Below, one piece after another: positions 1,374 through 28,335 of a stretch of DNA of 64,000 nucleotides. Made by a program: the position numbers and the translations under genes. Source of the DNA: Viola odorata (lineage: Eukaryota > Streptophyta > Magnoliopsida > Malpighiales > Violaceae). Location of the stretch: positions 28,258,579-28,322,578 of the forward strand of contig OY829542.1 in the NCBI GenBank assembly GCA_963691705.1. The letters are read 5' to 3'. Each line of letters starts with the position of its first letter. The first letter of the stretch is position 1. Under the pieces are notes generated by a model. It had not been told where the DNA came from. It searched no databases and worked only from the letters and a program-made list of their open reading frames with translations.

Positions 1374-2208
1374 CGATACGATCCTAGTTGCGTAGGATAT
1401 GTAGCACGCAATTCTGATCGTTGTTCAAGGATGGAATTCGATGCGGAAATAATTAACTCGACGAGTGCGAACTTAGACCACTCAGCCAACCTATGATAAG
1501 AGCCCTAATCGATTTCAAGCCAAGGAACTTGTCTCGGATTCTTAGATCTAGTCTCGACTAGGTGAGAATCAAACTAAGATAAACGAAACAATGGTTGCAA
1601 TTTCGGAGTTTTACTTATGAGGACTCAAGTTTGCGGACTCGAGAAGGAATAAGGTTCAACGCGTGAACAATGGGCAGAGATTTACAAAGAACAAAGTCTT
1701 GATTTATCAAAATAACAACCAGCTGAATAAGGAAGCCAAGCGACTCCTTATATAGAGTTTTACAAGCAAACCCTAATAGAATAGAAGTAGGAGTTCTAAT
1801 TCCTAAAGTAACTTAATTAACTAATTAACAAATTAACTAATTAAATAATTGAAGTAAGCATAAATATAGTTAAATACATTCCAGAAGCTCCAAGAAGTCT
1901 CTCCATCATCGGGCCAAGGTTTGGGCCGAAACCTCAAGTCGTATGTTGTCTCGCGCATACACTGCGCACTATAATGTTGACTTGGATAACTTTCAAACAA
2001 TTCGGCCAAATGGGCTGAAACCTCTTCCAAACGAAAGGTAACATCCTGACGTTTCCGAAACATAGTCGATTGCATCTTAGAGTCCTTGTCTACGTAGGAC
2101 TCCTATCAACGAAAATGTTGGCTTGATCTTTTGGACGATCCACTCGTCCAAACGTCCTAAAATTTGGACACAATCATAACACATAAAGGTTTCCATCAAG
2201 AAGTATCA
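1374..2208 (-). repeat. Element A LTR, left copy (3' LTR on the minus strand)
   Basis: The 835-bp copy begins CGATACG, where the other copy has TGATACG, and ends GTATCA. It is about 90 bp shorter than its partner because the stretch matching roughly 3956-4036 is missing. A minus-strand TATA box (plus-strand CCTTATATAGAG) lies near 1746-1757. Confidence 0.85.
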
Positions 2209-2669
2209 TTCCCTCCCTCTTTGGAAAGATTCGTCCTCGAATCTTGCTCAGCATAATCTGCCTTCTCTTGTACACTCAAGTCACGCTCAATAGCAAGCGT
2301 TATAGCATTCATATGCTCTTCGGATCCTTGTGTACAAGCCACTTGACTGTCATTCACCGTATCACCCCTTAGGGTTTTGTGCGTTGGATTGTATCTAGGG
2401 CCCGCCTTGGTAACCCTTGACTTACTTGTATGCCATGGTGCTACCACCTCCGTACCTATCCCTCTCTCGGCTAGGTTTTCATGTAGGAACTTCTTGTTAT
2501 CCTCTGGCCGTGACACACCGCCAACAACCCTCTCGATTAGTTCTCTAATGTGCTCATTCGTGGCTTGCTGTAGTTGTAAGAATTCAACACATCTCATGGT
2601 GAGTTCCTGCAATAAGGTGATCATCTCCTTTTGTTCTTCTCCTGAATTTCTTTTAGCCATCTCAATCAC
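2196..2669 (-). CDS. Element A single ORF (157 aa), possible Gag-N/Pol-C fusion
   Basis: This is the only sizeable ORF of element A. The N-terminus (from MAKRNSGEEQKEM, the second methionine after MIEM) is charged and predicted helical, like the start of Ty3/gypsy Gag. There is no zinc knuckle and no enzyme motif. The last residues (AEQDSRTNLSKEGG) match the tail that ends pol in elements C and D and overlap the polypurine tract. I infer that a large internal deletion joined a Gag start to a Pol end. The ORF has no stops, so it may still be translated. An unrelated small protein is the alternative. Confidence 0.55.
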   Translation of the reverse strand: MIEMAKRNSGEEQKEMITLLQELTMRCVEFLQLQQATNEHIRELIERVVGGVSRPEDNKKFLHENLAERGIGTEVVAPWHTSKSRVTKAGPRYNPTHKTLRGDTVNDSQVACTQGSEEHMNAITLAIERDLSVQEKADYAEQDSRTNLSKEGGNDTS

Positions 2670-3101
2670 CTAATCAAACTTAAACACTAGAAAGTGTAAA
2701 ATCTATTTTCGGTGAACACGATTTAGTATTTCGGGTGCAGATTTTGACTCTTATGTCCGAATGACTTGATTCTTTTTTATTCAGATTCCTAGTAGACACA
2801 ACTTTCCAATGGACTCTCTTATACTAAAATCGGACTTCAACAGGTATGTATTAAAATATGATTTCGACACTGACACTTTAGGGGACTATTTTTATGACTG
2901 TTTTTATGACACTTTTTGGGACTTGATTTTGTGACACTTCTTGATAAACAAAAGACACAACTAAACTATAACAACTTTTTTTTTTACTCAAACAAATCGC
3001 TTATAATTTAGCCAATTATTTTTATAACGACTCAAATAAAATGAAATAACAAAATAGAAATTAAAGATAGATTGATATAAATCAAACCTTGAACGCCTAG
3101 A

Positions 3102-3113
3102 GCTCTGCTACCA
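3102..3113 (-). other. Primer binding site of element A
   Basis: On the minus strand the LTR end is followed after two bases by TGGTAGCAGAGC. This differs at one position from the usual plant initiator-tRNA-Met primer site TGGTATCAGAGC. Confidence 0.75.
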
Positions 3114-3115
3114 AC

Positions 3116-4043
3116 TGATACGATCCTAGTTGCGTAGGATACGTAGCACGTAATTCTGATCGTTGTTCAAGGATGGATTTCGATGCGGAAATAATTAACT
3201 CGACGTGTGCGAACTTAGACCACTCAGCCAACCTATGCTAAGAGTCGTAATCGATTTCAAGTCAAGGATCTAGGTGAGAATCAAACTAAGACAAACGAAA
3301 CAATGGTTGCAATTTTGGAGTTTTACTTACGACGACTCAAGCTTGCGGACTCGAGAAGTAATAAGCTTCAACGCGTGAAAAATGGGCAGAGATTTGCAAA
3401 GAACAAAGTCTTGATTTATCAAAATAACAACCAACTGAATAAGGAAGCCAAGCGGCTCCTTATATAGAGTTTTACAAGCAAACCCTAATAGAATAGAAGT
3501 AGGAGTTCTAATTCCTAAAGTAACTTAATTAACTAATTAACTAATTAAAACTAAATATAAATATAGGTAAATAAGTTCCAGAAGCTTCAAGAAGTCTATC
3601 CATCATCGGGCCAAGGTTTAGGCCGAAACCTCAAGTCGTATGTTGTCTCGCGCATACACTGCACACCATAATGTCGAGTTGGATAACTTTCAAACCACTA
3701 GGCCAAATGGGCTGAAACCTCTTCTAAACGAAAGCTAACATCCTAACGTTTCCTAAACGTAGTCGATCGCGTGATTCTGACTTGTACAATGCTGAGTGGG
3801 TTCGGACGAAGTAGCCTGACGCGTCTTAGAGTCCTTGTCTGCGTAGGACTCCTGTCAACGAAAATCTTTGCTTGATCTTTTGGATGATACACTCATCGAA
3901 ATGTCATGAAATTTGGACACAATAAACATAACACATAAAGGTTTCCATCAAGCCTTTGTGATCCCTGATCGGACTCCATCTGCTCCATCATGTCTTGACG
4001 CTTTTGTCTTTGTAGTCGCGTGATACATCTTTGGATCGTATCA
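3116..4043 (-). repeat. Element A LTR, right copy (5' LTR on the minus strand)
   Basis: The 928-bp copy runs from TGATACGATCC to GGATCGTATCA, which are near-perfect inverted ends. A TATA box lies near 3458-3468 on the minus strand. The outermost bases (CGATCCTA...TAGGATACG) can fold into a short hairpin at the U5 end. Confidence 0.87.
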
Positions 4044-4820: not shown

Positions 4821-6551
4821 TCAGTTCTCTATTTGCTCATCGCATTCGGCTTCGCACTTGGTCTGCACATTCATACTTCTTTGTACTACCAATGTCATAG
4901 CCGATGCTAGGGTTACTTCTTCTTCACTACTCTTGGCTCCCTCGCCCTTTACCTCATTCTCTTCTTCCTCTCCATCACATTCACTTTCAGAGTCATAAAC
5001 TCCTTCCCGGATGATTATCACACGATGATTGGGACATTCAGAGGAAATACTGTGACATTTGTAGCACTCTATGTTGGTGAAATACTTCCTCGGTGGAGGG
5101 TTAGAGCTGGGGTGGTTAACGAGTTTTGGTGGGGGGTTATCGGGGTTAATTTTAGGGTAGGGTGTGTAGGGTTTGTGTAAGGATGGTGTAGGTTTAGGAG
5201 GTGGTGTGTGTGAGAGGTTCCTTGTGTAAGATTGGTCCTTTTGGAATGGTTTGTAAGGCTGGGGAGTCTTCCGGGCATAAGGTTTCCATTTAGAGGCTTC
5301 ATGCACCTCTACCTTCATTGTATAATGAAGCATGGACTGTAGGCTTTCAAAATCCTTCAATTCCAGCTTGAACATTAGCTTCTCATTGAGACCATTTAGA
5401 AATCGTGCTATGGTTATTTCTTCTTCTTCATAGGTGTCGGTTTTGGTGAGGAGGTCCTCCATTTCATTGTAATAGTCTCCGATGGTTTTAGTTCCTACAT
5501 GAGACGTTGCAATTTATTTTGCAAGTCTCGCTTGTAAGTAGAGGGAATAAACCGCTCTCTTATGATGTGTTTCATCTCCTCCCAAGTACGGATGGCACCG
5601 GTATCCCCTCTTTCCTTGCATACTTTATCCTACCAACTAATGGTGTACCCGTCAAATTCCACGGCCGCTAGCCTAACCTTCTTTCTTTCGGAATATTGGC
5701 GACAATTGAATATCCGTTGTATCTTTCCTTCCCATTTGAGGTACTTAGATGGATCAATTGCACCTTCAAATGTAGGAATTTGCACCTTGATGCTACTGAA
5801 GTTGTCATCTATCTGAGGCTTCTGTTGCCCATCAGAAGGTTTAGTAAAATGTTGACCTTGTGCTCGATTTCGCCATCCCAAATTGATGTCCTCATATTCC
5901 TGATTGAAGTCCTCATATCCCTCAAGGTCTTCATGCTCATCGGCGTTGTCATAAAATTCGCGTGCATGGTGAGGTGCGGTGTATGTATGCATGTGAGGAA
6001 TGAGGTTCCGAGGGTTAGGAACACTATCGGTATCCGGTAGACCACGACCCTAAGGTGGCCTAGTGGCGAGACTCATGTGATGACGTTGGTATTGTGCAAT
6101 GATGCCTTTGGCTTGAAGGTGTTGAAGGATGAAGGCATGGATATCGGGAATGACCTGACTTGTGGAGGCCTCTGGCTTTCGGGGCCTAGTGGTGAGAACA
6201 TTCGGAAAGCCTCGACCGGTAGCCCTTTCATGGCTGTTATCATCGGCATTGCTATCGTGACCTTCCTCCTTGGTCTCACAAGTGACTGGCTCCTTGTGAG
6301 GGTCCTCACGGGACTTAAGAGGTAGGCCCGACGGGGGTGGTGGAGGTATCAGAGGTCTTGTTTCCTAAAAGTTCACGGGACCTTAGGGTTTCCTCTAACA
6401 TGGCCTGGCGCGCTTCAGACTTGTCCAAGGCCAGCTTCATTTCAGCCAAGGATGTGAGAATTTGGGTCGGGACATCCTCAGTTCTATTCTCATTAGTTCC
6501 GACTACACTTTTATCCGACATTATGAAACTTGTACTTGCACACTTAAACAA
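4821..6551 (-). pseudogene. Element B gag, decayed
   Basis: Several minus-strand reading pieces line up as a chromovirus Gag. 6315-6551 is the N-terminus (starts MSDKSVVG, like MSDESVVG in element C). 5630-5992 holds the conserved Gag block with IPTFEGAIDPSKYLKWE and VRLAAVEFDGY. 4821-5462 carries the C-terminal half, a proline-rich spacer and a damaged zinc knuckle (CYKCHSISSEC, where the normal Cys-Cys-His-Cys spacing is lost). Stops and frame changes separate the pieces. Gag would form the virus-like particle. This copy cannot make a full protein. Confidence 0.8.
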
Positions 6552-6560
6552 AGGTTTGTA

Positions 6561-7010
6561 AAAATAATTCTCTCCCTCACGTGTTTAAACTCTCGTGTTT
6601 AGCACTCGTAAAAGATATACTCACAATCACTCACTCTCGGTTGCAAGGTGTGCGATTCCTTAGCACACTAGTCTTGCGCTTCAAGTAAACAAATGTGCAA
6701 TTACCTTCACAAACGATCAAGAGCTGATGACGGAAGAGACGAAAGTGGTACCGGTAGTAGGGCAGATGTCGAAAAGGAAATGAAGTATCGGTAGATGAGA
6801 TGGAGGGTTACCAGTATATTCAAGAAGACTCAAGAAAAGTTAACGAAAAAACACCAGTAAGTCAAAAAGGAATAGTACCGGTATACTCAAGAAAACTAAG
6901 GTATACTGAGTCCAGTAACCTTTACCGATACCAGTAAGACTTAGTTTGTTTCTTGAGATGGAAGGATGACTCAAGACTAGACGGGAGGACGACACAAGAC
7001 TCGAGTAAAA
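6561..7010 (-). mobile_element. Element B leader region, 5' LTR not recognised
   Basis: The first part (6570-6620, with CTCTCGTGTTTA) matches the leader upstream of gag in element C at 41.63-41.67 kb. Further right come short repeats of ACCGGTA/ACCAGTA and AAGACTCAAGA. I could not find a primer site or an LTR boundary for B, so its right end is eroded or lost. Confidence 0.45.
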
Positions 7011-7014
7011 TAAC

Positions 7015-7324
7015 TAGATATAGGGATGACAATTGGGCGGGTAAAGCACTATCCATACCCGCACCCACATCTATATGGAGCGGTAAATAAATAATAATTG
7101 TACCCGCAGATACCCGCAAATTTTATTTTCACCGATTTAACAAGGAAATTAAACTTTATAATTTATATTTTGGACCATGTATTTAAATTTTTGTAATAGT
7201 TTGGATTTTAAATTTTGAGCTAGGAAATGATGCAAGTAAAGAATCTAATTAATAATAATGTTAGTGCAATACATTAATATTATAAATAATATTGCTGCAT
7301 CTCTTTACAGCAACAGAGAAGTTT
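7015..7324. other. AT-rich spacer with a hAT/MITE-like GGGCGGGTAAA start
   Basis: The stretch TAGGGATGACAATTGGGCGGGTAAAG followed by repeated ACCCGC resembles the terminal sequence of many short plant DNA transposons. A comparable GGGTCGGGTCGG block occurs at 62.93-63.08 kb. No terminal inverted repeat pair or duplication was found here. The rest is AT-rich with no coding signal, ending where the tandem array starts. Confidence 0.3.
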
Positions 7325-7866
7325 GCGCACGCCGTGCGCACTCGGGCTGGTGCAGGCGCGGCTTGCGATACGAGGATCGTATCATCCCCTCCCTCTTATC
7401 AAAGATTCGCCCTCAAATCTCATTCTGCATAGAGGTTGTATCGCAATCCCTCTCAGCTTCAAGCCTTGCTTCTGCCATCTTTATTCACCTAAATCAAACT
7501 TAACACAAGAAAGTGTAAATCTATTTTCGGCGAACATAGTTTAGTAAATTAAGCACAGATTTTGACTCCGACGTCCAAATGACCTGATTCTTCTTGATTC
7601 AGATTCCACACAGATAGGGCTTTCCAACGAACTAAGACTCGTAGAAATCGGACTCCAGTAGGTATGTATTGAAATACGAATTTGACACTGAGACTTTGGT
7701 GGACTGTTTTTGTGACTCTTTTGTGACTCTTCTCTTGACTTAAATAAAAGACTCAAAATAGAAAAGTAATGACACTTTGGTGGACTGTTTTTGTGACTCT
7801 AATTGACACAACGATAAAAGTAAAGGATAGTTACCAAACTTGAACGCCTGAAGCTCCGCTACCAAC
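7325..7866 (-). repeat. Array unit 0: LTR1 fragment + internal 1
   Basis: Only the last 60 bp or so of LTR1 (to 7384) survive, joined to AT-rich DNA near 7325. Internal 1 is 7385-7866 (482 bp), with polypurine tract at its left and primer-site-like sequence at its right. On the minus strand it can encode a peptide starting MAEARLEAERDCDT that stops before the polypurine tract. Confidence 0.85.
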
Positions 7867-8933
7867 TGATGCGATCCTAGGTGGCTAGGATGCGCAACAA
7901 TGACTGTGTGATCTAGTTCAAAGCTTGTATTTCGAATGCGGAATCATAACTCATGAAAACATGTGAATCTCTAAGGTAAGGTGTCCTTGGCACTCCACAC
8001 AGAGTTCATGAGGTTCTTGAAACAAACCCTTGAATCTCCAAGTCGGCAATGTTTGGCACTCTAAGGAACGAATGCTTCAATGGATAGCAACTTAGGGCTT
8101 TACTTGTGGCTACTCTCAGCTTGCTAAACTAGGAATAGAACATGGTTTCATAGGAACGGTTTATGAGGACGCACCTCTCAAAGACAGTCTCATTCTTTTT
8201 CCAAAAATATCATATATCATTTTATTCATACGACTTGGCCTTTAAATAGGCTAGGAAAATACAAACTTAGAAATAAATAATTCCTATATAAATAATTGCA
8301 AAATGAATAATATCTCATTTAGGTAGTTCCTTATCCGAGCGTTCCTTTGCCAAACCCTAGCCACCTTAGGGTTCTTGGAATTTTGTTCCTTGCGTAGGCC
8401 GTCGGCACTAAGGCTGGTGTAGGCACGGCTTGCGATACGAGGATCGTATCATCCCCTCCCTCTTATCAAAGATTCGCCCTCAAATCACATTCTGCATAGG
8501 GTTTGTATCGCAATCCCTCTCAGCTTCAAGCCTTGCTTCTAGCATCTTTATTCACCTAAATCAAACTTAACACAAGAAAATGTAAATCTATTTTCGGCGA
8601 ACATAGTTTAGTAAATTAAGCACAGATTTTGACTCTGATGCCCGAATGACCTGATTCTACTTGATTCAGATTCCTCACAGATAGGGCTTTCCAACGAACT
8701 AAGACTCATAGAAATCAGGCTCGAATAGGCATGTATTGAAATATAAGTTCGACACTGACAATTTGGTGGACTATTTTTGTGACTCATTCGTGACTCTTCT
8801 CTTGACTTAAATAAAAGACTCAAAACACAAAAGTAATGACACTTTGGTGGACAATTTTTGTGACTCTAATTGACACAACGATAAAAGTAATGGATTGTTA
8901 CCAAACTTGAACGCCTGAAGCTCCGCTACCAAC
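7867..8933 (-). repeat. Array unit 1: LTR2 + internal 2
   Basis: LTR2 is 7867-8451 (585 bp) and internal 2 is 8452-8933 (482 bp). Minus-strand TATA-like CTATTTAAAGG is present in the LTR. This unit is more diverged from the others than units 2-9 are from each other. Confidence 0.88.
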
Positions 8934-9986
8934 TGATGCGATCCAAGGTGGAAGGATGCGCAACGATGACTGTGTGATCTAGTTCAAAGCTTGTATTTCG
9001 AATGCGGAATCATAACTCACGAAAATATGTGAATCTCCAAGGTAAGGTGTCCTTGGCACTCCACACAGAGTTCATGAGGATCTTGAGACAAACCCTTGAA
9101 TCTCCAAGCTGGCAATGCTTGGCACTCTAAGGAACGAATGCTTCAATGGATAGCAACTTCGGGCTTTACTTGTGGCTACTCTCAGCTTGCTAAACTAGGA
9201 ATAGAACAAGGTTCCATAGGAACGGTTTATGAGGACGGACCTCTCAAAGACAAAGTCTCATTCTTATTCCAAAAATATCATGTATCATTTTATTCATACG
9301 GCTTGGCCTTTAAATAGGCTAGGAAAATACAAACTTAGAAATAAATAATTGCAAAATGAATAATATCTCATTTAGGTAGTTCCTTATCCGAGCGTTCCAT
9401 TGCCAAACCCTAACCACCTTAGGGTTCTTGGAATTTTGCTCCTTGCGCTGGCCATGCTCACTCAGGTTGGTGCAGGCGCGGCTTGCGATACGAGGATCGT
9501 ATCATCCCCTCCCTCTTATCAAAGATTCGCCCTCGAATCTCGTTCTGCATAGGGTTTGTATCGCAATCCCTCTCAGCTTCAAGCCTTGCTTCTGGCATCT
9601 TTATTCACCTAAATCAAACTTAACACAAGAAAGTGTAAATCTATTTTTGGCGATTATAGTTTAGTAAATTAAGCACAGATTTTGACTCCGATGTCCGAAT
9701 GACCTGATTCTTCTTGATTCAGATTCCTTATAGATAGGGCTTTCCAAAGACCTAAGACTCATAGAAATTAGTCTCCAATAGGTATGTATTGAATTATAAG
9801 TTCGACACTGACACTTTGGTGGACTATTTTTGTGACTCTTTTGTGACTCTTCTCTTGACTTAAATAAAAGACTCAAAACAGAAAAGTAATGACCCTTTGG
9901 TGGACTATTTTTGTGACTCTAATTGACACAACAATAAAAGTAAAGGGTAGTTACCAAACTTGAACAACTGAAGCTCTGCTACCAAC
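8934..9986 (-). repeat. Array unit 2: LTR3 + internal 3
   Basis: LTR3 is 8934-9504 (571 bp) and internal 3 is 9505-9986 (482 bp). It is the first half of a 2041-bp dimer that recurs at 10975. Confidence 0.9.
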
Positions 9987-10974
9987 AGATGCGATCCTAG
10001 GTGGCTAGGATGCGCAACAATGACTGTGTGATCTAGTTCAAAGCTTGTATTTCGAATGCGGAATCATAACTCACAAAAACATGTGAATCTCCAAGGTAAG
10101 GTGTCCTTGGCACTCTACACAGAGTTCATGAGGTTCTTGAAACAAACCCTTGAATCTCCAAGCCGGCAATGCTTGGCACTCTAAGGAATGAATGCTTCAA
10201 TGGATAGCAACTTCGGGCTTTACTTGTGGCTACTCTCAGCTTGCTAAACCAGGAATAGAAAAAGGTTCCATAGGAACGGTTTATAAGGATGCACCTCTCA
10301 AAGACAAAGTCTCATTCTTTTTCCAAAAATATCATATATCATTTTATTCATACAGCTTAGCCTTTAAATAGGCTAGGAAAATACAAACTTAGAAATAAAT
10401 AATTCATAAATAAATAATTGCAAAATGAATAAAATCTCATTTAGGTAGTTCCTTATCCGAGCGTTCCATTGCCAAACCCTAACCACCTTAGGGTTCTTGG
10501 AATTTTGCTCCTTGCGCTGGCCATGCTCACTCAGGTTGGTGCAGGCGCGGCTTGCGATACGAGGATCGTATCATCCCCTCCCTCTTATCAAAGATTCGCC
10601 CTCGAATCTCGTTCTGCATAGGGTTTGTATCGCAATCCCTCTCAGCTTCAAGCCTTGCTTCTGGCATCTTTATTCACCTAAATCAAACTTAACACAAGAA
10701 AGTGTAAATCTATTTTTGGCGATTATAGTTTAGTAAATTAAGCACAGATTTTGACTCCGATGTCCGAATGACCTGATTCTTCTTGATTCAGATTCCTTAT
10801 AGATAGGGCTTTCCAACGACCTAAGACTCATAGAAATCAGACTCCAACAGGTATGTATTGAAATATAAGTTCGACACTGACACTTTAGTGGACTGTTTTT
10901 GTGACTCTAATTGACACAACAATAAAATTAAAGGATAGTTACCAAACTTGAACGCCTGAAGCTCCGCTACCAAC
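9987..10974 (-). repeat. Array unit 3: LTR4 + internal 4 (short form)
   Basis: LTR4 is 9987-10573 (587 bp) and begins AG instead of TG. Internal 4 is 10574-10974 and is the 401-bp form, lacking 81 bp. It is the second half of the first 2041-bp dimer. Confidence 0.9.
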
Positions 10975-12027
10975 TGATGCGATCCAAGGTGGAAGGATGC
11001 GCAACGATGACTGTGTGATCTAGTTCAAAGCTTGTATTTCGAATGCGGAATCATAACTCACGAAAATATGTGAATCTCCAAGGTAAGGTGTCCTTGGCAC
11101 TCCACACAGAGTTCATGAGGATCTTGAGACAAACCCTTGAATCTCCAAGCTGGCAATGCTTGGCACTCTAAGGAACGAATGCTTCAATGGATAGCAACTT
11201 CGGGCTTTACTTGTGGCTACTCTCAGCTTGCTAAACTAGGAATAGAACAAGGTTCCATAGGAACGGTTTATGAGGACGGACCTCTCAAAGACAAAGTCTC
11301 ATTCTTATTCCAAAAATATCATGTATCATTTTATTCATACGGCTTGGCCTTTAAATAGGCTAGGAAAATACAAACTTAGAAATAAATAATTGCAAAATGA
11401 ATAATATCTCATTTAGGTAGTTCCTTATCCGAGCGTTCCATTGCCAAACCCTAACCACCTTAGGGTTCTTGGAATTTTGCTCCTTGCGCTGGCCATGCTC
11501 ACTCAGGTTGGTGCAGGCGCGGCTTGCGATACGAGGATCGTATCATCCCCTCCCTCTTATCAAAGATTCGCCCTCGAATCTCGTTCTGCATAGGGTTTGT
11601 ATCGCAATCCCTCTCAGCTTCAAGCCTTGCTTCTGGCATCTTTATTCACCTAAATCAAACTTAACACAAGAAAGTGTAAATCTATTTTTGGCGATTATAG
11701 TTTAGTAAATTAAGCACAGATTTTGACTCCGATGTCCGAATGACCTGATTCTTCTTGATTCAGATTCCTTATAGATAGGGCTTTCCAAAGACCTAAGACT
11801 CATAGAAATTAGTCTCCAATAGGTATGTATTGAATTATAAGTTCGACACTGACACTTTGGTGGACTATTTTTGTGACTCTTTTGTGACTCTTCTCTTGAC
11901 TTAAATAAAAGACTCAAAACAGAAAAGTAATGACCCTTTGGTGGACTATTTTTGTGACTCTAATTGACACAACAATAAAAGTAAAGGGTAGTTACCAAAC
12001 TTGAACAACTGAAGCTCTGCTACCAAC
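10975..12027 (-). repeat. Array unit 4: LTR5 + internal 5
   Basis: LTR5 is 10975-11545 and internal 5 is 11546-12027. By eye it is a copy of unit 2 at an offset of exactly 2041 bp. Confidence 0.9.
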
Positions 12028-13015
12028 AGATGCGATCCTAGGTGGCTAGGATGCGCAACAATGACTGTGTGATCTAGTTCAAAGCTTGTATTTCGAATGC
12101 GGAATCATAACTCACAAAAAAATGTGAATCTCCAAGGTAAGGTGTCCTTGGCACTCTACACAGAGTTCATGAGGTTCTTGAAACAAACCCTTGAATCTCC
12201 AAGCCGGCAATGCTTGGCACTCTAAGGAATGAATGCTTCAATGGATAGCAACTTCGGGCTTTACTTGTGGCTACTCTCAGCTTGCTAAACCAGGAATAGA
12301 AAAAGGTTCCATAGGAACGGTTTATAAGGATGCACCTCTCAAAGACAAAGTCTCATTCTTTTTCCAAAAATATCATATATCATTTTATTCATACAGCTTA
12401 GCCTTTAAATAGGCTAGGAAAATACAAACTTAGAAATAAATAATTCATAAATAAATAATTGCAAAATGAATAAAATCTCATTTAGGTAGTTCCTTATCCG
12501 AGCGTTCCATTGCCAAACCCTAACCACCTTAGGGTTCTTGGAATTTTGCTCCTTGCGCTGGCCATGCTCACTCAGGTTGGTGCAGGCGCGGCTTGCGATA
12601 CGAGGATCGTATCATCCCCTCCCTCTTATCAAAGATTCGCCCTCGAATCTCGTTCTGCATAGGGTTTGTATCGCAATCCCTCTCAGCTTCAAGCCTTGCT
12701 TCTGGCATCTTTATTCACCTAAATCAAACTTAACACAAGAAAGTGTAAATCTATTTTTGGCGATTATAGTTTAGTAAATTAAGCACAGATTTTGACTCCG
12801 ATGTCCGAATGACCTGATTCTTCTTGATTCAGATTCCTTATAGATAGGGCTTTCCAACGACCTAAGACTCATAGAAATCAGACTCCAACAGGTATGTATT
12901 GAAATATAAGTTCGACACTGACACTTTAGTGGACTGTTTTTGTGACTCTAATTGACACAACAATAAAATTAAAGGATAGTTACCAAACTTGAACGCCTGA
13001 AGCTCCGCTACCAAC
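12028..13015 (-). repeat. Array unit 5: LTR6 + internal 6 (short form)
   Basis: LTR6 is 12028-12614, also starting AG, and internal 6 is 12615-13015 (401 bp). By eye it is a copy of unit 3. I noticed one difference, C at 10080 against A at 12121. Confidence 0.9.
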
Positions 13016-13987
13016 TGATGCGATCCAAGGTGGAAGGATGCGCAACGATGACTGTGTGATCTAGTTCAAAGCTTGTATTTCGAATGCGGAATCATAACTC
13101 ACGAAAATATGTGAATCTCCAAGGTAAGGTGTCCTTGGCACTCCACACAGAGTTCATGAGGATCTTGAGACAAACCCTTGAATCTCCAAGCTGGCAATGC
13201 TTGGCACTCTAAGGAACGAATGCTTCAATGGATAGCAACTTCGGGCTTTACTTGTGGCTACTCTCAGCTTGCTAAACTAGGAATAGAACAAGGTTCCATA
13301 GGAACGGTTTATGAGGACGGACCTCTCAAAGACAAAGTCTCATTCTTATTCCAAAAATATCATGTATCATTTTATTCATACGGCTTGGCCTTTAAATAGG
13401 CTAGGAAAATACAAACTTAGAAATAAATAATTGCAAAATGAATAATATCTCATTTAGGTAGTTCCTTATCCGAGCGTTCCATTGCCAAACCCTAACCACC
13501 TTAGGGTTCTTGGAATTTTGCTCCTTGCGCTGGCCATGCTCACTCAGGTTGGTGCAGGCGCGGCTTGCGATACGAGGATCGTATCATCCCCTCCCTCTTA
13601 TCAAAGATTCGCCCTCGAATCTCGTTCTGCATAGGGTTTGTATCGCAATCCCTCTCAGCTTCAAGCCTTGCTTCTGGCATCTTTATTCACCTAAATCAAA
13701 CTTAACACAAGAAAGTGTAAATCTATTTTCGGCGATCATAGTTTAGTAAATTAAGTACAGATTTTGACTCCGATGTCCGAATGACCTGATTCTTCTTGAT
13801 TCAGAGTCCTCACAGATAGGGCTTTCCAACGACCTAAGACTCATAGAAATCAGACTCCAACAGGTATGTATTGAAATATAAGTTCGACACTGACACTTTA
13901 GTGGACTGTTTTTGTGACTCTAATTGACACAACAATAAAATTAAAGGATAGTTACCAAACTTGAACGCCTGAAGCTCCGCTACCAAC
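13016..13987 (-). repeat. Array unit 6: LTR7 + internal 7 (short form)
   Basis: LTR7 is 13016-13586 (571 bp), like LTR3 and LTR5. Internal 7 is 13587-13987 (401 bp). The unit looks like a junction between the dimer block and the 962-bp block. Confidence 0.9.
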
Positions 13988-14949
13988 TGATGCGATCCTA
14001 GGTGACTAGGATGCGCAACAATGACTGTGTGATCTAGTTCAAAGCTTGTATTTCGAATGCGGAATCATAACTCACGAAAATATGTGAATCTCCAAGGTAA
14101 GGTGTCCTTGGCACTCCACACAGAGTTCATGAGGATCTTAAAAGAAACCCTTGAATCTCCAAGCCGGCAATGCTTGGCACTCTAAGGAACGAATGCTTCA
14201 ATGGATAGCAACTTCGGGCTTTACTTGTGGCTACTCTCAGCTCGCTAAACTAGGAATAGAACAAGGTTCCATAGGAACGGTTTATGAGGACGGACCTCTC
14301 AAAGACAAAGTCTCATTCTTATTCCAAAAATATCATGTATCATTTTATCCATACGGCTAGGCCTTTAAAGAGGCTAGGAAAATACAAACTTAGAAATAAA
14401 TAATTGCAAGATGAATAATATCTCATTTAGGTAGTTCCTTATCCGAGCGTTCCTTTGCCAAACCCTAGCCACCTTAGGGTTCTTGGAATTTTGCTCCTTG
14501 CGCACTCGGGCTGGTGCAGGCGCGGCTTACGATACGAGGATGGTATCATCCCCTCCTTCTTATCAAAGATTCATCCTCGAATCTCGTTCTGCATAGGGGT
14601 TGTATCGCAATCCCTCTCACCTTCAAGCCTTGCTTCTGTCATCTTTATTCACCTAAATCAAACTTAAGACAAGAAAGTGTAAACCTATTTTCGGCGAACA
14701 TAGTTTAGTAAATTAAGCACAGATTTTGACTCCGATGTCCGAATAACCGGATTCTTCTTGATTCAGATTCCTCAGAGATAGGGCTTTCCAACGAACTAAG
14801 ACTCACGGAAATCGGACTCCAATAGGTATGTATTGAAATACGATTTCGACACTGACACTTTGGTGGACTGTTTTTGTGACTCTAATTGACACAACAATAA
14901 AATTAAAGGATAGTTACCAAACTTGAACGCCTGAAGCTCCGCTACCAAC
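13988..14949 (-). repeat. Array unit 7: LTR8 + internal 8 (962-bp type)
   Basis: LTR8 is 13988-14548 (561 bp) and internal 8 is 14549-14949 (401 bp). The TATA-like core is changed (plus strand TTTAAATAG to TTTAAAGAG at 14361-14378). Confidence 0.9.
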
Positions 14950-15911
14950 TGATGCGATCCTAGGTGACTAGGATGCGCAACAATGACTGTGTGATCTAGT
15001 TCAAAGCTTGTATTTCGAATGCGGAATCATAACTCACGAAAATATGTGAATCTCCAAGGTAAGGTGTCCTTGGCACTCCACACAGAGTTCATGAGGATCT
15101 TAAAAGAAACCCTTGAATCTCCAAGCCGGCAATGCTTGGCACTCTAAGGAACGAATGCTTCAATGGATAGCAACTTCGGGCTTTACTTGTGGCTACTCTC
15201 AGCTCGCTAAACTAGGAATAGAACAAGGTTCCATAGGAACGGTTTATGAGGACGGACCTCTCAAAGACAAAGTCTCATTCTTATTCCAAAAATATCATGT
15301 ATCATTTTATCCATACGGCTAGGCCTTTAAAGAGGCTAGGAAAATACAAACTTAGAAATAAATAATTGCAAGATGAATAATATCTCATTTAGGTAGTTCC
15401 TTATCCGAGCGTTCCTTTGCCAAACCCTAGCCACCTTAGGGTTCTTGGAATTTTGCTCCTTGCGCACTCGGGCTGGTGCAGGCGCGGCTTACGATACGAG
15501 GATGGTATCATCCCCTCCTTCTTATCAAAGATTCATCCTCGAATCTCGTTCTGCATAGGGGTTGTATCGCAATCCCTCTCACCTTCAAGCCTTGCTTCTG
15601 TCATCTTTATTCACCTAAATCAAACTTAAGACAAGAAAGTGTAAACCTATTTTCGGCGAACATAGTTTAGTAAATTAAGCACAGATTTTGACTCCGATGT
15701 CCGAATAACCGGATTCTTCTTGATTCAGATTCCTCAGAGATAGGGCTTTCCAACGAACTAAGACTCACGGAAATCGGACTCCAATAGGTATGTATTGAAA
15801 TACGATTTCGACACTGACACTTTGGTGGACTGTTTTTGTGACTCTAATTGACACAACAATAAAATTAAAGGATAGTTACCAAACTTGAACGCCTGAAGCT
15901 CCGCTACCAAC
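14950..15911 (-). repeat. Array unit 8: LTR9 + internal 9 (962-bp type)
   Basis: LTR9 is 14950-15510 and internal 9 is 15511-15911. It appears identical to unit 7 by eye, including the altered TATA-like core at 15323-15340. Confidence 0.9.
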
Positions 15912-16954
15912 TGATGCGATCCTAGGTGACTAGGATGCGCAACAATGACTGTGTGATCTAGTTCAAAGCTTGTATTTCGAATGCGGAATCATAACTCACG
16001 AAAATATGTGAATCTCCAAGGTAAGGTGTCCTTGGCACTCCACACAGAGTTCATGAGGATCTTAAAAGAAACCCTTGAATCTCCAAGCCGGCAATGCTTG
16101 GCACTCTAAGGAACGAATGCTTCAATGGATAGCAACTTCGGGCTTTACTTGTGGCTACTCTCAGCTCGCTAAACTAGGAATAGAACAAGGTTCCATAGGA
16201 ACGGTTTATGAGGACGGACCTCTCAAAGACAAAGTCTCATTCTTATTCCAAAAATATCATGTATCATTTTATCCATACGGCTAGGCCTTTAAAGAGGCTA
16301 GGAAAATACAAACTTAGAAATAAATAATTGCAAGATGAATAATATCTCATTTAGGTAGTTCCTTATCCGAGCGTTCCTTTGCCAAACCCTAGCCACCTTA
16401 GGGTTCTTGGAATTTTGCTCCTTGCGCACTCGGGCTGGTGCAGGCGCGGCTTACGATACGAGGATGGTATCATCCCCTCCTTCTTATCAAAGATTCATCC
16501 TCGAATCTCGTTCTGCATAGGGGTTGTATCGCAATCCCTCTCACCTTCAAGCCTTGCTTCTGTCATCTTTATTCACCTAAATCAAACTTAAGACAAGAAA
16601 GTGTAAACCTATTTTCGGCGAACATAGTTTAGTAAATTAAGCACAGATTTTGACTCCGATGTCCGAATAACCGGATTCTTCTTGATTCAGATTCCTCAGA
16701 GATAGGGCTTTCCAACGAACTAAGACTCACGGAAATCGGACTCCAATAGGTATGTATTGAAATACGATTTCGACACTGACACTTTGGTGGACTGTTTTTG
16801 TGACTCTTTTGTGACTCTTCTCTTGACTTAAATAAAAGACTCAAAACAGAAAAGTAATGACACTTTGGTGGACTGTTTTTGTTACTCTAATTGACACAAC
16901 GATAAAAGTAAAGGATAGTTACCAAACTTGAATGCCTGAAGCTCCGCTACCAAC
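15912..16954 (-). repeat. Array unit 9: LTR10 + internal 10 (long form)
   Basis: LTR10 is 15912-16472 (561 bp, same altered TATA-like core at 16285-16302) and internal 10 is 16473-16954 (482 bp). It equals units 7 and 8 except that the 81-bp segment is retained, so this may be the parent of the 962-bp units. Confidence 0.9.
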
Positions 16955-18009
16955 TGATGCGATCCTAGGTGGCTAGGATGCGCAACAATGACTGTGTGAT
17001 CTAGTCCAAAGCTTGTATTTCGAATGTGAAATTATAATTCTCGAAAACATGTGAATCTCCAAGGTAAGCTATCCTTGGCACTCCACACAGAGTTCATGAG
17101 GTTCTTGAAACAAACCCTTGAATCTCCAAGCCTGCAATGCTTGGCACTCTAAGTAACGAATGCTCCAATGGATAGCAACTTCGGGCTTTACTTGTGGCTT
17201 CTCTCAGCTTGCTAAACTAGGAATAGAACAAGGTTCCATAGGAACGGTTTATGAGGACGCACCTCTCAAAGACAGTCTCATTCTTTTTCCAAAAATATGA
17301 TATATCATTTTATTCATACGGCTTGACTTTTAAATAGGCTAAGAAAATACAAACTTAGAAATAAATAATTCCTAAATAAATAATTCCAAAATGAATAATA
17401 TGTCATTTAGGTAGTTCCTTATCCGAGCGCTCCTTTGCCAAACCGTAGCCGCCTTAGGGTTCTTGGAATTTTGCTCCTTGCGCACGTCGTGCGCACTCGG
17501 GCTGGTGCAGGCCCGGTTTGCGATACAACGACCGTATCATCCCCTCCCTCTTATCAAAGATTCACCCTCGAATCTCGTTCTGCATAGGGGCTGTATCGCA
17601 ATCCCTCTCAGCTTCAAGCCTTGCTTCTGCCATCTTTATTCACCTAAATCAAACTTAACACAAGAAAGTGTAAATCTATTTTCGGCGTACATAGTTTAGT
17701 AAATTAAGCACAAATTTTGACTCTGATGTCCGAATGACCTGATTCTTCTTGATTCAGATTCCTCACAGATAGGGCTTTCCAACGAACTAATACTAATAGA
17801 AATCGGACTCCAATAGTATGTATTGAACTACGATTTCGACAGTGACACTTTGGTGGACTGTTTTTGTGACTCTTCTCTTGACTTAAATAAAAGACTCAAA
17901 ACAGAAAAGTAATGACACATTGGTGGACTGTTTTTGTGAGTCTAATTGACACAACAATGAAAGTAAAGGATAGTTACCAAACTTGAATGCCTGAAGCTCC
18001 GCTACCAAC
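16955..18009 (-). repeat. Array unit 10: LTR11 + internal 11
   Basis: LTR11 is 16955-17539 (585 bp), ending ACCGTATCA, and internal 11 is 17540-18009 (470 bp). It is visibly more diverged than units 7-9. Confidence 0.88.
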
Positions 18010-18643
18010 TGATGCGATCCTAGGTGGCTAGGATGCGCAACAATAACTATGTGATCTAGTTCAAAGCTTGTATTTCGAATGCGGAATCATAACTCACGAA
18101 AACATGTGAATCTCCATGGTAAGGTGTCGTTGGCACTCCATACAAAGTTCATGAGGTTCTTGAAACAAACCCTTGAATCTCCAAGCCGGCAATGCTTGGC
18201 ACTCTAAGGAACAAATGCTTCAATGGATAGCAACTTCAGGCTTTACTTGTGGGTAATGTCAGCTTGCTAAACTAGGAATAGAACAAGGTTCCATAGGAAC
18301 GGTTTATGAGGATGGACCTCTCAAAGACAAAGTCTCATTCGTTTTCCAAAAATATCATATATCATTTTATTGATACGGCTTGGCCTTAAAATAGGCTAGG
18401 AAAATACAAACTTAGAAATAAATAATTCCTAAATAAATAATTCCAAAATGATTAATATCTCATTTAGGTAGTTCCTTATCCGAGCGCTCCTTTTCCAAAC
18501 CCTAGCCGCCTTAGGGTTCTTGGAATTTTGCTCCTTGCGCACTCCGTGTGCACTCGGGCTGGTGCAGGCGCGGCTTGCGATACGAGGATCGTATCATCCC
18601 CTCCCTCTTATCAAAGATTCTCCCTCGAATCTTGTTCTGCATA
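18010..18643 (-). repeat. Array unit 11: LTR12 + truncated internal 12
   Basis: LTR12 is 18010-18596 (587 bp). Only 47 bp of internal 12 (polypurine tract and first bases, to GTTCTGCATA) remain before Athila pol sequence starts abruptly. Confidence 0.88.
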
Positions 18644-18649
18644 CGTTCG

Positions 18650-19290
18650 CGATGTGTGATCTTTTCTAGGGCACGTCGGTTTCTACAAACGATTCATTAA
18701 GGACTTCTCCAAAATTGCTCAACCTATGTGCTGACTGCTCCAGAAGGAAGTCGCCTTTGATTTCGATGAGCATTGTAAAGTAGCCTTTGAACTTCTCAAA
18801 AATAAGCTTATCTCAGCTCCGATCATTCGAGCCCCGACTGGTCTCTTCCTTTCGAGGTCATGTGCGATGTCAGCAATCAAGCCCTAGGTGCCGTTTTAGG
18901 TCAAAAGAAGGAGAAGGAAACTTATGTGATCTACTATGCTTCCAAGCTATTAGACCCAGCCCAGCAGAACTACACAGCAACAGAAAAAGAACTCTTAGCC
19001 GTGGTTTACGCCCTCGACAAGTTCAGGCAGTACCTCCTAGGTACCAATGTGCTCGTGTACTCGGATCATTCCGCCCTCAGATGTTTGTTGACAAAGGCTG
19101 ATGCCAAGCCTCGACTCATTCGTTGGATCTTGTTGCTACAGGAATTCAATATCTTGATCAAAGACAAGGATGGAAAAGAAAATCTGGTAGCCGACCATCT
19201 AAGCAGACTTCCAGCCCATGAAGACAATTCACTTGTGCAGATCTGCGATACTTTTCCAAATGAACAATTGTGTCTAGCCCATGCTGTCTA
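18650..19290 (+). pseudogene. Athila copy 1 RT end and RNase H
   Basis: Starts in the RT connection region (RSFLGH-FYKRFIKDFSKIAQ in broken frames). It then has an open stretch 18860-19290 with the RNase H signatures ALGAVLGQKK, TATEKELLAVVYALDKFRQYLLG and VYSDHSALRCLL, followed by the ENLVADHLSRLP end block. RNase H removes RNA from the RNA:DNA hybrid during reverse transcription. Stops and a frame change before 18860 make it non-functional. Confidence 0.85.
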
Positions 19291-19299
19291 GTTTCCATG

Positions 19300-20570
19300 G
19301 TTTTCAGACATAGCGAATTTTTGTGCCACTAGTACCTACCCCGCGGATGCTTCCCCATCAAAATGCACAAGAATCAGAAGGCAAGCCAAATATTACATTT
19401 GGGATAGCCCATACTTATGGAAGCACTGCTCGGACCAGATCATATGTCGTTGTGTAACCATGGACGAGGTGCCCTCGATCCTTAAATTCTGCCATTCTGA
19501 AGGAGGACATTTCGCGGCCAGGAAAACTTCCCTCAAGGTGTTAGAAGTAGGTCTATATTAGGGACAGGGATAGCTATATGTATTGTCTGTCGTGCCCTCG
19601 ATGCCAAGCCATGGATAATATTGGGGCCAGGAATCAGATGCCTCTGACCGGTATCATTGTTTGTGAAATTTTTGATATCTAGGGTATAGATTTCATAGGC
19701 CCATTTCCCAATTCCTTCGGCAATATCTACATCCTTCTGGCCATCGATTATGTTTCCAAAGCCATCGATTATGTTTCCAAATGGGTCAAGGCCAAGTCAA
19801 CTCGAACAAACGACTCCAAGGTGGTAGTAAACTTTCTACGCACCAATATTTTCAATAGGTTTGGCATACCTCGAGCCCTCATAAGTGATCGGGGTACCCA
19901 TTTTTGCAACCGCGTCGTGGCCTCGCTTCTGACCAAGTGTGGAGTCCACCACAGGACATCTACTGCCTATGATCCTCAGACCAACGGCCAAGACGAAGTG
20001 TCAAACTGTGAAGTTAAGTCCATTCTGGAGAAAACGGTGAACCATTCCCGAAAAGATTGGAGTCTGAAGTTGGATGACGCCCTCTAGGCATATCAGGATA
20101 GCTTTCAAGACCCCAATCGGTATGACACCCTACAGACTCGTCTATGGCAAGTCGTGTCATCTCCCAGTTGAGATAGAGCACAAGGCTTTCTGGGACATCA
20201 GGAAAGTAAACACGGATCTCGAAAAGGCTGGCTAGAGCAGACGCTTACAGATCCAAGAGCTGGAAGAGTTGAGAGACAATGCTTATGAGAATGGCTTGCT
20301 CTATAAGGGCAAGACCAAGACATACCATGACAGGAACCTTCGTCCCAAACCTTTTTCGATCAGACAGAAAGTATTGTTGTATAACTCACGTTTGTGACTG
20401 TTTGCAGGAAAGCTCAAGTCTAAATGGTCAGGACCTTTCGTGGTCACGATAGTTTTTGACTATGGGGCAATTGAGATCCAGAATCCGACAACAAGAACAA
20501 TCTTCAAAGTCAATGGCCACAGGCTGAAACCCTTTTACGAGGGATTCAAGCCCTCGACTGTTGAGGACAC
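19300..20570 (+). pseudogene. Athila copy 1 integrase
   Basis: Pieces in several frames match integrase: the HHCC-like N-terminal zinc region near 19.48-19.62 kb (CHSEGGHFAARKT), the catalytic core 19821-20087 ([27 protein letters not shown]), and the C-terminal region to 20570. Stops occur at 19559, 19681 and 20086 among others. A 20-bp direct repeat (CCATCGATTATGTTTCCAAA) at about 19740-19780 disrupts the core. The protein would insert cDNA into the genome but cannot be made from this copy. Confidence 0.82.
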
Positions 20571-26215: not shown

Positions 26216-27565
26216 AAGATTGATGTTCATGATGCCACCATCTCTCTAGAGTTTGATGGGGAGATCATCAAATTCAACATGCTAGAAGCCATGCGATACC
26301 CCTCTGAATTCTCTAGTGTGAATTATATTGATATTGTTGACCCCATTATAGGGGAGATTGATGAAATATATTCTACTGGCCCCTTGCAGTCTGCCCTTGA
26401 CAGGAGTCTGACACCCGCTCTTCTAGATGTCGTAGCCTCGACACTTCCCATTCCACCTGAATTACACTCTGTCGTCGTTGCCCTAGAAGAATGCGCTATT
26501 ACTCAGCATGAGTCTCTGAAGCAGTCTCCTGAATGTCCGGACCGTGTTAAGTTATTTCCCTCTATTGATCAGGCTCCAGCCCTCGATCTGAAGCCATTGC
26601 CTTCCCATTTGAAGTATGCTTATCTAGGCCCCGATAACTCTTTGCCCGTCATTATCTCCAACAAGCTCAAAAACCCCGAGGAATCTGAGCTAGTTTCCTT
26701 GCTGAAGAACTTCAGACAAGCTATAGGATGGACCATTGCGGACATCAAGGGCTTATCCCTAGCGTTATGCACTCATCACATTCACCTCGAAGACGCGAGC
26801 AAGACCATCCGCCAGCCCCAGCGTCGACTGAATCCGCCAATGATGGAAGTGGTAAAGAAAGAGATTCTCAAGTTGCTAGATGCAGGAGTTATCTACCCCA
26901 TCTCAGATAGTCCATGGGTCAGCCCTATCCAGGTCGTGCCCAAGAAAATAGGCATAACCATCACCACCGGTCAAGATGGCGAATCCATTCCTACCCGGAT
27001 CCAGAATGGGTGGAGAGTGTATATTGACTACCGCCGATTGAATGTCGCTACCAGGAAAGATCATTTTCCCCTGCCCTTCATCGATCGGATGCTAGAACGT
27101 CTCGCTGGCAAGACCCACTATTGTTGTCTAGACGGTTACTCCGGTTTCCATCAAATCCCAGTTGCTCCTGAAGACCAGGAAAAAACCATCTTTACCTACC
27201 CTTTCGGGACCTTAGCGTATAGACGCATGCCCTTCGGCCTGTATAACGCCCCTGCCACTTTTCAACGTTGCATGGTCAGCATTTTCTCTGAGCTAGTTGA
27301 GGATGGAATCGAGGTCTTCATGGACGACTTCACTGTCTATGGGAATTGTTTTGAGGAATGCATGGACAATCTGAAGAGATGCCTAGAGCGCTGCATAGAG
27401 ACAAATCTTGTTCTGAATTTTGAAAAATGTCACTTCATGGTGGATCGAGCCCTGGTACTTAGTCATGTCATCTCGGCCAAGGGAATTGAGGTTGACAAAG
27501 CGAAGATCGAAGTGATAGAATCCTTGCCCATCCATCCTGTGTTCGAGATGTGCGGTCTTTTCTAG
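26216..27565 (+). pseudogene. Athila copy 2 protease tail and reverse transcriptase
   Basis: The open part 26279-27565 begins in the tail of the protease (DATISLEFDGEIIKFNMLEA precedes it). It runs through RT with the RT words WVSPIQVVPKK, WRVYIDYRRLN, HFPLPFIDRMLERLAG and CLDGYSGFHQIPV. The catalytic FMDD box lies near 27314-27331. RT copies element RNA into cDNA. The frame is lost at about 27550 just after KAKIEVIESLP, where the sequence continues in another frame as RSFLGHAAFYRRFIKDFS. Apart from this break the RT region is remarkably open. Confidence 0.88.
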
Positions 27566-28335
27566 GCCACGCCGCTTTCTACCGACGGTTTATTAAGGAT
27601 TTTTCCAAGATTGCCCAATCAATGTGTCACTTGCTCCAGAAGGACGTGCCCTTTGATATCAACGAGGCCTGTAAAACCGCTTTTGAACTCCTCAAGAACA
27701 GACTTACCTCAGCCCCAATTATTCGTACCCCCGATTGGACATTACCTTTCGAGGTCATGTATGATGCCAGTAATCAGGCCTTGGGTGCCGTTTTGGGTCA
27801 GAAGAAGGATAAAGAGACCCGTGTTATCTACTATGCTTCCAAGCTACTAGACCTGGCCCAGTAGAACTACACAACCACAGAGAAAGAACTCCTGGCCGTA
27901 GTCTATGCCCTTGACAAATTCAGGCAATATCTCCTAGGCACTCATGTGCTCGTCTACTCGGACCATTCTGCCCTTCGGTATTTGTTGACCAAAGCTGATG
28001 CCAAACCACAACTTATTCGTTGGATCCTGCTCCTACAAGAATTTGATATCGATATCAAAGATAAGGCAGGAAGAGAAAATCTTGTGGCAGATCACTTGAG
28101 CAGACTTCCAACCCAGGAAGACAATTCGCTTGAGCCAATCCGAGATACTTTTCTAGACGAGCAATTATGTCTAGCCCAGGTTGTTTATTCCCCATGGTTT
28201 TCTGATATTGCAAACTTTTGTGCTACTGGCACTTACCCAGCCGATGCCTCCCTTTCTGAATGCAACAAAATCAGATGGCAAGCCAAATACTACATTTGGG
28301 ACAGCCCCTACCTGTGGAAGCACTGTTCGGATTAG
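27550..28335 (+). pseudogene. Athila copy 2 RNase H
   Basis: Two open pieces (27550-27864 and 27946-28335) give the RNase H words VMYDASNQALGAVLGQKK, TEKELLAVVYALDKFRQYLLG and VYSDHSALRYLL, ending with ENLVADHLSRLP. A TAG at 27862-27864 interrupts it inside the second conserved block. The linker to integrase (IRWQAKYYIWDSPYLWKHC) is followed by a TAG at 28333. Confidence 0.86.

Follow-up and report, generated by a model that had tools for sequence, protein, structure and literature searches.

The stretch of DNA analysed here, hereafter the window, comprises 64,000 nucleotides of Viola odorata (C6:28258579-28322578, contig OY829542.1) from a 699-Mb assembly in 26 contigs (GCA_963691705.1). At 7325-18643, on the minus strand, it holds a head-to-tail array of a short retrotransposon-like element, in which 11 complete long terminal repeats (LTRs; 561-587 bp) and one partial LTR alternate with 11 complete, short, noncoding internal domains (401, 470, or 482 bp) and one partial internal domain (47 bp). 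A preliminary description of the window had recognized this as a terminal-repeat retrotransposon in miniature (TRIM)-like element whose neighboring copies share their LTRs, and the alternation bears it out. Its coordinates are right, as found by anchoring the array borders on LTR termini, with at most two mismatches allowed in the complements of the polypurine tract (PPT) and primer-binding site (PBS). Its count of twelve LTRs holds for 11 complete copies, the twelfth being the last 60 bp only. In a repeat search of 7.2-18.7 kb, 300-nt pieces recur as families of 8-12 in-register copies, mostly 962-1069 bp apart. Inverted repeat pairs of at least 60 nt are absent from window positions 6000-20000.

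The junctions within the array are seamless. On the forward strand, the PPT complement stands directly after the LTR end in 12/12 cases and the PBS complement directly before the LTR start in 11/11, which gives the PPT and PBS-like site at each junction that had been claimed. Because no extra bases occur at any of the 23 junctions, target duplications between the units are absent. On the element strand, all 12 LTR starts read TGATAC, and nine of 11 LTR ends read GCATCA, with GCATCT in L3 and L5. The PBS, 2 bp beyond the LTR, is TGGTAGCGGAGC in nine of 11 copies and TGGTAGCAGAGC in two. The PPT at the LTR ends is AAGAGGGAGGGGA, with a one-base variant at L7-L9. A single open reading frame (ORF) of at least 80 aa overlaps the array; it is 81 aa long and enters from the left flank, in agreement with the earlier statement that the array encodes neither Gag nor enzyme. 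Both outer ends lack an intact LTR. The left edge lies 60 bp before an LTR end, at the short palindrome GCGCACGCCGTGCGC, and the right edge lies 47 bp into an internal domain, against a Ty3-type reverse transcriptase (RT)/RNase H-like fragment. The coordinates are collected in Table 1.

Table 1. Positions in the window of the array and its component LTRs (L) and internal domains (I).
Feature	Position	Strand	Remark
Whole tandem array	7325..18643	-	11 complete LTR-internal periods plus partial ends
Partial LTR L0, 60 bp	7325..7384	-	left edge at the GCGCACGCCGTGCGC palindrome
Internal I0, 482 bp	7385..7866	-	
LTR L1, 585 bp	7867..8451	-	
Internal I1, 482 bp	8452..8933	-	
LTR L2, 571 bp	8934..9504	-	identical to L4 and L6
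Dimer I2-L3-I3-L4, 2,041 bp, first copy	9505..11545	-	one mismatch vs second copy
Dimer I4-L5-I5-L6, 2,041 bp, second copy	11546..13586	-	
Internal I6, 401 bp	13587..13987	-	short form; right-hand parent in the I7/I8 hybrids
LTR L7, 561 bp	13988..14548	-	identical to L8 and L9
Hybrid internal I7	14549..14949	-	left part I9 type, right part I6 type; exchange ~14862-14878; 68/68 diagnostic sites for the whole unit
LTR L8	14950..15510	-	
Hybrid internal I8	15511..15911	-	identical to I7
LTR L9	15912..16472	-	
Internal I9, 482 bp	16473..16954	-	long form, left-hand parent of the hybrids
LTR L10, 585 bp	16955..17539	-	most diverged
Internal I10, 470 bp	17540..18009	-	
LTR L11, 587 bp	18010..18596	-	
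Partial internal I11, 47 bp	18597..18643	-	right edge, adjoins the Ty3-type RT/RNase H fragment
PPT AAGAGGGAGGGGA next to LTR	8452..8464	-	example of 12 LTR ends
PBS TGGTAGCGGAGC, 2 bp beyond LTR	8920..8933	-	example

The units of the array are mosaics that record stepwise duplication. LTR pairs differ at 0-48 of ~585 positions, with L2, L4, and L6 identical to one another and L7, L8, and L9 likewise. The 2,041-bp dimer I2-L3-I3-L4 recurs as I4-L5-I5-L6 with one mismatch; the tract repeated at a shift of 2,041 bp covers 8897-11688 (one mismatch), and another, 13901-15845, is repeated at a shift of 962 bp (no mismatch). The 11 LTR-internal units (U) comprise nine distinct sequences, U3 being the same as U5 and U7 the same as U8. 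Counting a near-identical pair as one leaves eight unit types, which have six lengths and differ pairwise by 2.4-8.0%. At 1.3e-8 substitutions per site and year, the rate used in PMC5818461, the widest LTR pair would correspond to ~3 million years and the dimer duplication to ~20,000 years, rough figures that are unsafe because of exchange between units.

Exchange between units is directly visible at one place. When all parent pairs were considered, only U7 and U8 passed as hybrids, and because they are identical to each other they count as one hybridization event. Both match U9 at all diagnostic sites up to column 395 and U6 from column 411. One breakpoint explains 68/68 diagnostic sites, compared to 45/68 for the best single parent, and it can be narrowed to 16 columns within the internal domain, outside the LTR. 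The same exchange accounts for the short form of I7 and I8, which lacks 81 bp. An independent 81-bp deletion in I7/I8 was dropped as an explanation, as a single exchange between I6 and I9 types covers both the deletion and the flanking sites. I9 has two copies of a ~30-bp direct repeat 81 bp apart, the short forms have one, and the exchange tract falls in this repeat. For the dimer duplication, the junction could fall at any point of a 751-bp tract, one LTR included. The preliminary description had ascribed the array to unequal crossing-over between LTRs. Local growth by unequal exchange stands, but its restriction to LTRs does not; the one junction that can be placed is internal, and that of the dimer may include an LTR.

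The element has two LTRs, a PBS, a PPT, and no coding capacity, as TRIMs do, and two-LTR relatives with 5-bp target duplications exist. The LTRs of TRIMs are very small, ~100-250 bp. Because the LTRs here are larger (561-587 bp, in a two-LTR copy of ~1.6 kb), we use the label TRIM-like. The PBS resembles that given for the TRIM Cassandra, TGGTATCAGAGC; TGGTAGCGGAGC differs from it at two positions and TGGTAGCAGAGC at one (10-11/12 alike). The Cassandra LTR contains 5S rRNA sequence (PMC7215508). No Rfam match at E<=1 was obtained in 6800-19200, so the element is without 5S rRNA, and identity with Cassandra was rejected. Elements of the CRM lineage have LTR ends TGATG and T/CATCA and a tRNA-Met PBS, and in CRM group A the coding region extends into the 3' LTR, as described by Neumann et al. 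(PMC3059260). The LTR start TGATAC is one base off TGATG, and GCATCA is the usual LTR end here. An element next to an array on contig C10 (locus L030) has gag, RT, RNase H, and integrase matches, with no chromodomain at E<=0.001 in Pfam. Its ORF passes the PPT by ~240 bp, and it has the same PBS as the window element and a similar leader (51 bp at 85% and 104 bp at 72%). Because this shared leader is too little, L030 is not named as the autonomous partner, and the search for such a partner found lineage-level similarity only. The window element is most likely a nonautonomous TRIM-like member of the CRM type (centromeric Ty3).

The family and its relatives are abundant in the genome. A PBS-LTR junction pattern, also common to other, longer element families, gave 4,443 genome-wide matches, and a PPT-LTR junction pattern gave 2,096, versus 0 for each reversed-pattern control. 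We took 20 regions, 19 picked from genome matches that included the PBS-LTR junctions, plus the window's left neighbor, and added four more from C10; the structures described are thus a chosen sample rather than a census. Both the solo and the two-LTR copies that the preliminary description would have had one look for are present with 5-bp target duplications. The two-LTR copies lie at loci L020 (ATAGC) and L021 (CCGCC), and solo LTRs with target duplications lie at L025 (TATGG), L026 (ACGGG), and in L032 (CTAAT). The target duplication of the solo LTR at L027 has one mismatch, and the solo LTR in L029 has no target duplication. One or both outer ends are missing at loci L016, L018, L019, and L024. 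A three-LTR copy (L022) and a four-LTR copy (L017) are each enclosed by a single 5-bp target duplication (TCCTG for L022, CTTAC for L017). At L022, only 2 sites separate the first two LTRs, and the two internals show no difference over 565 positions; the outer LTR departs from the first by 14 sites and one 15-bp indel. At L017, the inner pair of LTRs is identical and one difference separates the last two internals, against 10 and 5 private changes in the outer LTRs. Because the inner units are near-identical and the outer LTRs have diverged, units were added after insertion at both loci. Separate arrays of the family occur at C8, C10, and C4. The one at 26.98-27.00 Mb on C10 has 11 complete 1,254-bp units, nine of which, compared in full, differ by 2-30 positions; the nearest relative of several lies two to five units away. 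A further arrangement occurs at locus L023, where an LTR-internal-LTR copy with a further abutting LTR has the target duplication CCTTG. At 3495-3500 of this locus, an LTR end and an LTR start stand four bases apart, like a two-LTR circle junction, and the pair sits within the one outer target duplication.

Local grouping was examined in a tree of 70 LTR pieces (57 different) from part of the family, so that closer outside relatives may exist. Pieces shorter than 360 bp and a C4 cluster were left out, and 19 of 24 satellite loci, described below, were entered. A branch supported at 97/85 separates the window's 11 LTRs from all other pieces. The LTRs of the C10 1,254-bp array form one group (99/92), as do those of the C10 satellite (100/100), and L022, L020, and L021 give one group each. 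Together, the eight multi-row groups need 8 changes, compared to a shuffled mean of 32.0, and a value as low was reached in 0/200 shuffles.

The 2,096 PPT-LTR matches pointed to a run of 1,139-bp spacing on C10, a contig that was then probed with 40 samples of 1.3-1.5 kb each. Of the 25 samples taken at 27.65-30.4 Mb, 21 are satellite, one is partly so, and three are not (27.95, 28.0, and 28.07 Mb). The satellite is absent from 15/15 samples outside the block (26.8-27.532 and 30.6-34 Mb). Three longer samples (27.54, 27.59, and 27.63 Mb) are all satellite, and that at 27.54 Mb holds the left edge; the right edge is bracketed between 30.4 and 30.6 Mb. The block therefore runs in midchromosome from ~27.54 Mb to beyond 30.4 Mb (~2.9 Mb). 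At the sampled places, the satellite lies on the plus strand to 27.85 Mb, the minus strand at 28.15-28.6 Mb, the plus strand at 28.7-30.2 Mb, and the minus strand at 30.4 Mb, and no C10 sample contains N bases. An exact 30-base LTR/PPT junction has 1,956 copies genome-wide, which at 1,139 bp amount to ~2.2 Mb. The matches listed, in contig order, comprise five on C4 and then C10, with none on C1-C3 or C5-C9, and the samples suggest that nearly all other copies are on C10 rather than on C11-C26. Nine complete units measure 1,137-1,155 bp and are 95.6-99.7% alike (mean 97.8%), so that the C10 relative consists of the long arrays of similar monomers that characterize satellite DNA. Its internal domain is mostly 87-89% like window I1, and its LTR is ~81-83% like the window LTR over the comparable 414 bp. 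The LTR end is GTATGA at 36/37 PPT junctions, and the PBS lacks ACCA in 27/39 copies. Retrotransposition is not to be expected of units with these ends, so that copying at the DNA level most likely produced the satellite. On its left side the block begins at unit position 394, within a repeat at 392-420 matching the ~30-bp internal repeat of the window array, which, from these two cases only, may be a preferred break point. A short cluster of the C10 satellite variant, with alternating 1,138/1,154-bp units and both ends truncated, is present at C4:47131500-47138500 (locus L076).

Solo-LTR, two-LTR, three-LTR, four-LTR, ~twelve-LTR, and ~two-thousand-unit forms of one element lineage thus coexist in one assembly. 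We consider it very probable that the window array grew in place, by unequal exchange, from one insertion of a CRM-type TRIM-like element and that a sister on C10 became a satellite. The founder would have been an ordinary two-LTR copy inserted once near the window site, with RT and integrase presumably supplied by a CRM-type partner. The LTR pair, joined once a first duplication had taken place by all ~1-kb units, would then act as direct repeats, between which unequal homologous exchange between sister chromatids would add and remove whole units; copy-gain repair, such as nonallelic gene conversion, would be an equivalent route. At least one exchange point would lie in the internal domain and others perhaps in LTRs, and the outcome would be a shared-LTR array of mosaic units. 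In the C10 sister lineage the process would have run on, yielding a chromosome-specific satellite of ~two megabases with ends mostly unfit for retrotransposition.

Several observations weigh against this reading. The copy number of the array is that of the assembly. As the outer ends of the window array are lost, with no intact outer LTR or target duplication, the single-insertion origin of its founder is inferred and is borrowed from sister loci. In the LTR tree, into which only part of the family was entered, L017 (3 changes) and L023 (2 changes) are not single groups. The internal-domain tree places L019, an outside copy, amid the units of the window, so the window internals are not cleanly one group. 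ACCA is kept in 12/39 satellite PBS copies. At L022, the middle LTR follows the first from column 39 on, and a single LTR-LTR crossover there must therefore fall in the first 38 bp; conversion would explain this LTR equally well. Crossing-over and gene conversion are in general inseparable by sequence, and the authors of the CRM1TR study favor gene conversion, with crossing-over suppressed near centromeres (PMC3648361).

How the multimeric state began could be explained in other ways. Rolling-circle amplification via extrachromosomal circles would give head-to-tail shared-LTR units with truncated ends and without target duplications, as in the window array and the C4 cluster, and could help to explain the large C10 block. 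Its units would start uniform, however, whereas the window array has eight types differing by 2.4-8.0% and hybrids that arose between its own members, and we regard this route as rather unlikely. About as unlikely is insertion of an already multimeric array, in which cDNA concatenated by template switching, in-particle recombination, or one-LTR-circle read-through integrated in one step. The outer target duplications, with none inside, at the three- and four-LTR loci fit this too; tandem elements of rice also lie within one target duplication, with the two routes undecided there (PMC11899658), and template switching is among the routes that Kalendar et al. propose (PMC7215508). But all LTRs of such a multimer would start identical, whereas the inner units at L022 and L017 are far younger than the divergence of their outer LTRs, and L7, L8, and L9 are identical while other window LTR pairs differ at up to 48/585 positions. 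Later DNA-level growth would be needed anyway, so that a ready-made multimer could explain at most a first step.

The two remaining explanations concern the array as a whole. Exact unit copies (U3 = U5, U7 = U8) would suit an assembly artefact, but misjoining cannot invent eight types, 2.4-8.0% apart and of six lengths; the array contains no N, and separate arrays of the family occur at C8, C10, and C4. An artefact is therefore unlikely for the window array, and repeated joining of just one or two true units is highly improbable; in the details of the exact copies, or in how large the C10 block is, an artefact is possible. Independent insertions of one family, either nested (which the preliminary description had already discounted) or serial, might be entertained because the family and its relatives are abundant, as the 4,443 PBS-LTR matches indicate. 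The single orientation, the lack of spacer bases at 23/23 junctions, and the grouping of the window LTRs led us to reject them, and they retain practically no probability.

Tandem TRIM copies have precedents in plants, as the preliminary description had noted. Its view that arrays this long are unusual is not upheld; Cassandra arrays with up to 12 repeats are published (PMC7215508), and the same Viola odorata genome has the 11-unit 1,254-bp C10 array and the megabase array. The Cassandra arrays (Kalendar et al., 2020; PMC7215508) are also coding-free TRIMs with LTR/internal alternation, truncated end units in some, and a proposed origin by unequal exchange. They differ in the 5S rRNA of their LTR and in units called almost identical, compared to the mosaics of the window, and the account consulted contains no megabase stage. 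Unequal crossing-over is likewise proposed for the maize TRIM Wukong, a different family with shorter arrays, whose 89 intact elements include eight with three LTRs, five with four, and one each with six and seven (PMC4528315). Tandem LTR-retrotransposons of rice and other plants share internal LTRs within one target duplication; they have coding domains and are mostly Gypsy, the two loci described consist of two internals and three LTRs, and the authors could not separate tandem insertion from later recombination (PMC11899658).

The C10 satellite has its nearest counterparts in maize CRM1TR and CRM4TR, locally homogenized, satellite-like arrays that derive from CRM LTR and untranslated region (UTR) and lie in or near centromeres (PMC3648361). 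Their monomer is an LTR-UTR piece, whereas that on C10 spans the whole TRIM-like unit, PBS and PPT included, and the two CRM1TR loci measure ~213 and ~115 kb, versus ~2.9 Mb for the C10 block. In coffee, nonautonomous CRM elements (TRIM, large retrotransposon derivative [LARD], and terminal repeat with gag [TR-GAG]) include coding-free and gag-only forms, as seems to be the case here, but the report describes no tandem repeats in the CRM-rich putative centromere (PMC5818461). In Lathyrus sativus, too, satellites arose within LTR-retrotransposons, and their expansion took place mainly in primary constrictions; they come from short tandem repeats inside the elements, not from whole LTR-internal units (PMC7004042). 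Potato centromere satellites and Sobo have long monomers that are partly retrotransposon-derived (cited in PMC3648361), and that paper does not describe them as whole LTR-internal units. Shared-LTR TRIM arrays of up to 12 repeats and CRM LTR-UTR satellites are thus already published (PMC7215508, PMC4528315, PMC11899658, PMC3648361). Among the open-licence literature matches listed, none describes a complete TRIM-like unit at megabase scale with intermediate stages in one genome.

The new interest lies in this graded size series, from single insertion to satellite, within one genome, to which the window array can be seen to belong only from beyond the window. For the most part, finished arrays are what the birth of satellites and centromere repeats has been deduced from. 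In this genome, the target duplications of the small forms and the hybrid junctions in a larger one allow the order of steps and some exchange points to be read directly, and that order can be tested on related accessions. A bolder proposal, to which we give somewhat less than even weight, is that the ~2.9-Mb C10 block is a functional, chromosome-specific centromere, which grew out of one dead CRM-type TRIM insertion as its complete LTR-internal units underwent exchange; the window array and the three- and four-LTR copies would then be earlier stages of this route. In an attempt to place centromeres, copies of CRM-like patterns were traced. An exact 41-base pattern has 403 copies and was followed on C1 and C2 among the matches listed: 17/51 on C1 lie in 40-46 Mb and 8 more in 50-52 Mb, and 23/49 on C2 lie in 24-30 Mb. 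A second pattern has 219 copies, for which the matches listed cover C1 to C4. An exact 157-base pattern has 19 copies over all contigs, four of them on C10, two near the satellite edges and two away from them (27.01, 30.61, 40.15, and 40.18 Mb).

Related families also form tandems. On C1, 13 of 82 listed one-mismatch PBS-LTR junctions fall in four same-strand clusters of 2-4, spaced 1.4-4.5 kb. A simple element contributes a single junction of this kind, so that roughly a sixth of the sample looks tandem. The clusters represent several related families with longer units (L009-L013, at C1:30.15, 24.31, and 22.81 Mb: 4,269 x4, 4,538 x3, and ~1,450 x4). In a Pfam scan of frames from three of the four, L009 and L013 match retrotransposon gag and L011 matches nothing. 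Three same-strand CRM-like PPT-LTR junctions lie ~6,072 bp apart at C1:51098084, 51104156, and 51110229 (G000), and full-length CRM-like elements may therefore also form shared-LTR tandems.

Other features of the window lie beside the array. Its only N run, 200 bases at 32790-32989, is outside the array and is probably a scaffold gap. The RT/RNase H fragment at the right edge (18645-19197), broken off there inside the RT gene, is ~80% like a second such fragment at 27541-28094. A diverged relative of the element, 77-80% like its internal domain, occupies 2203-3190 on the minus strand and has its own PBS-LTR copy at 3118.

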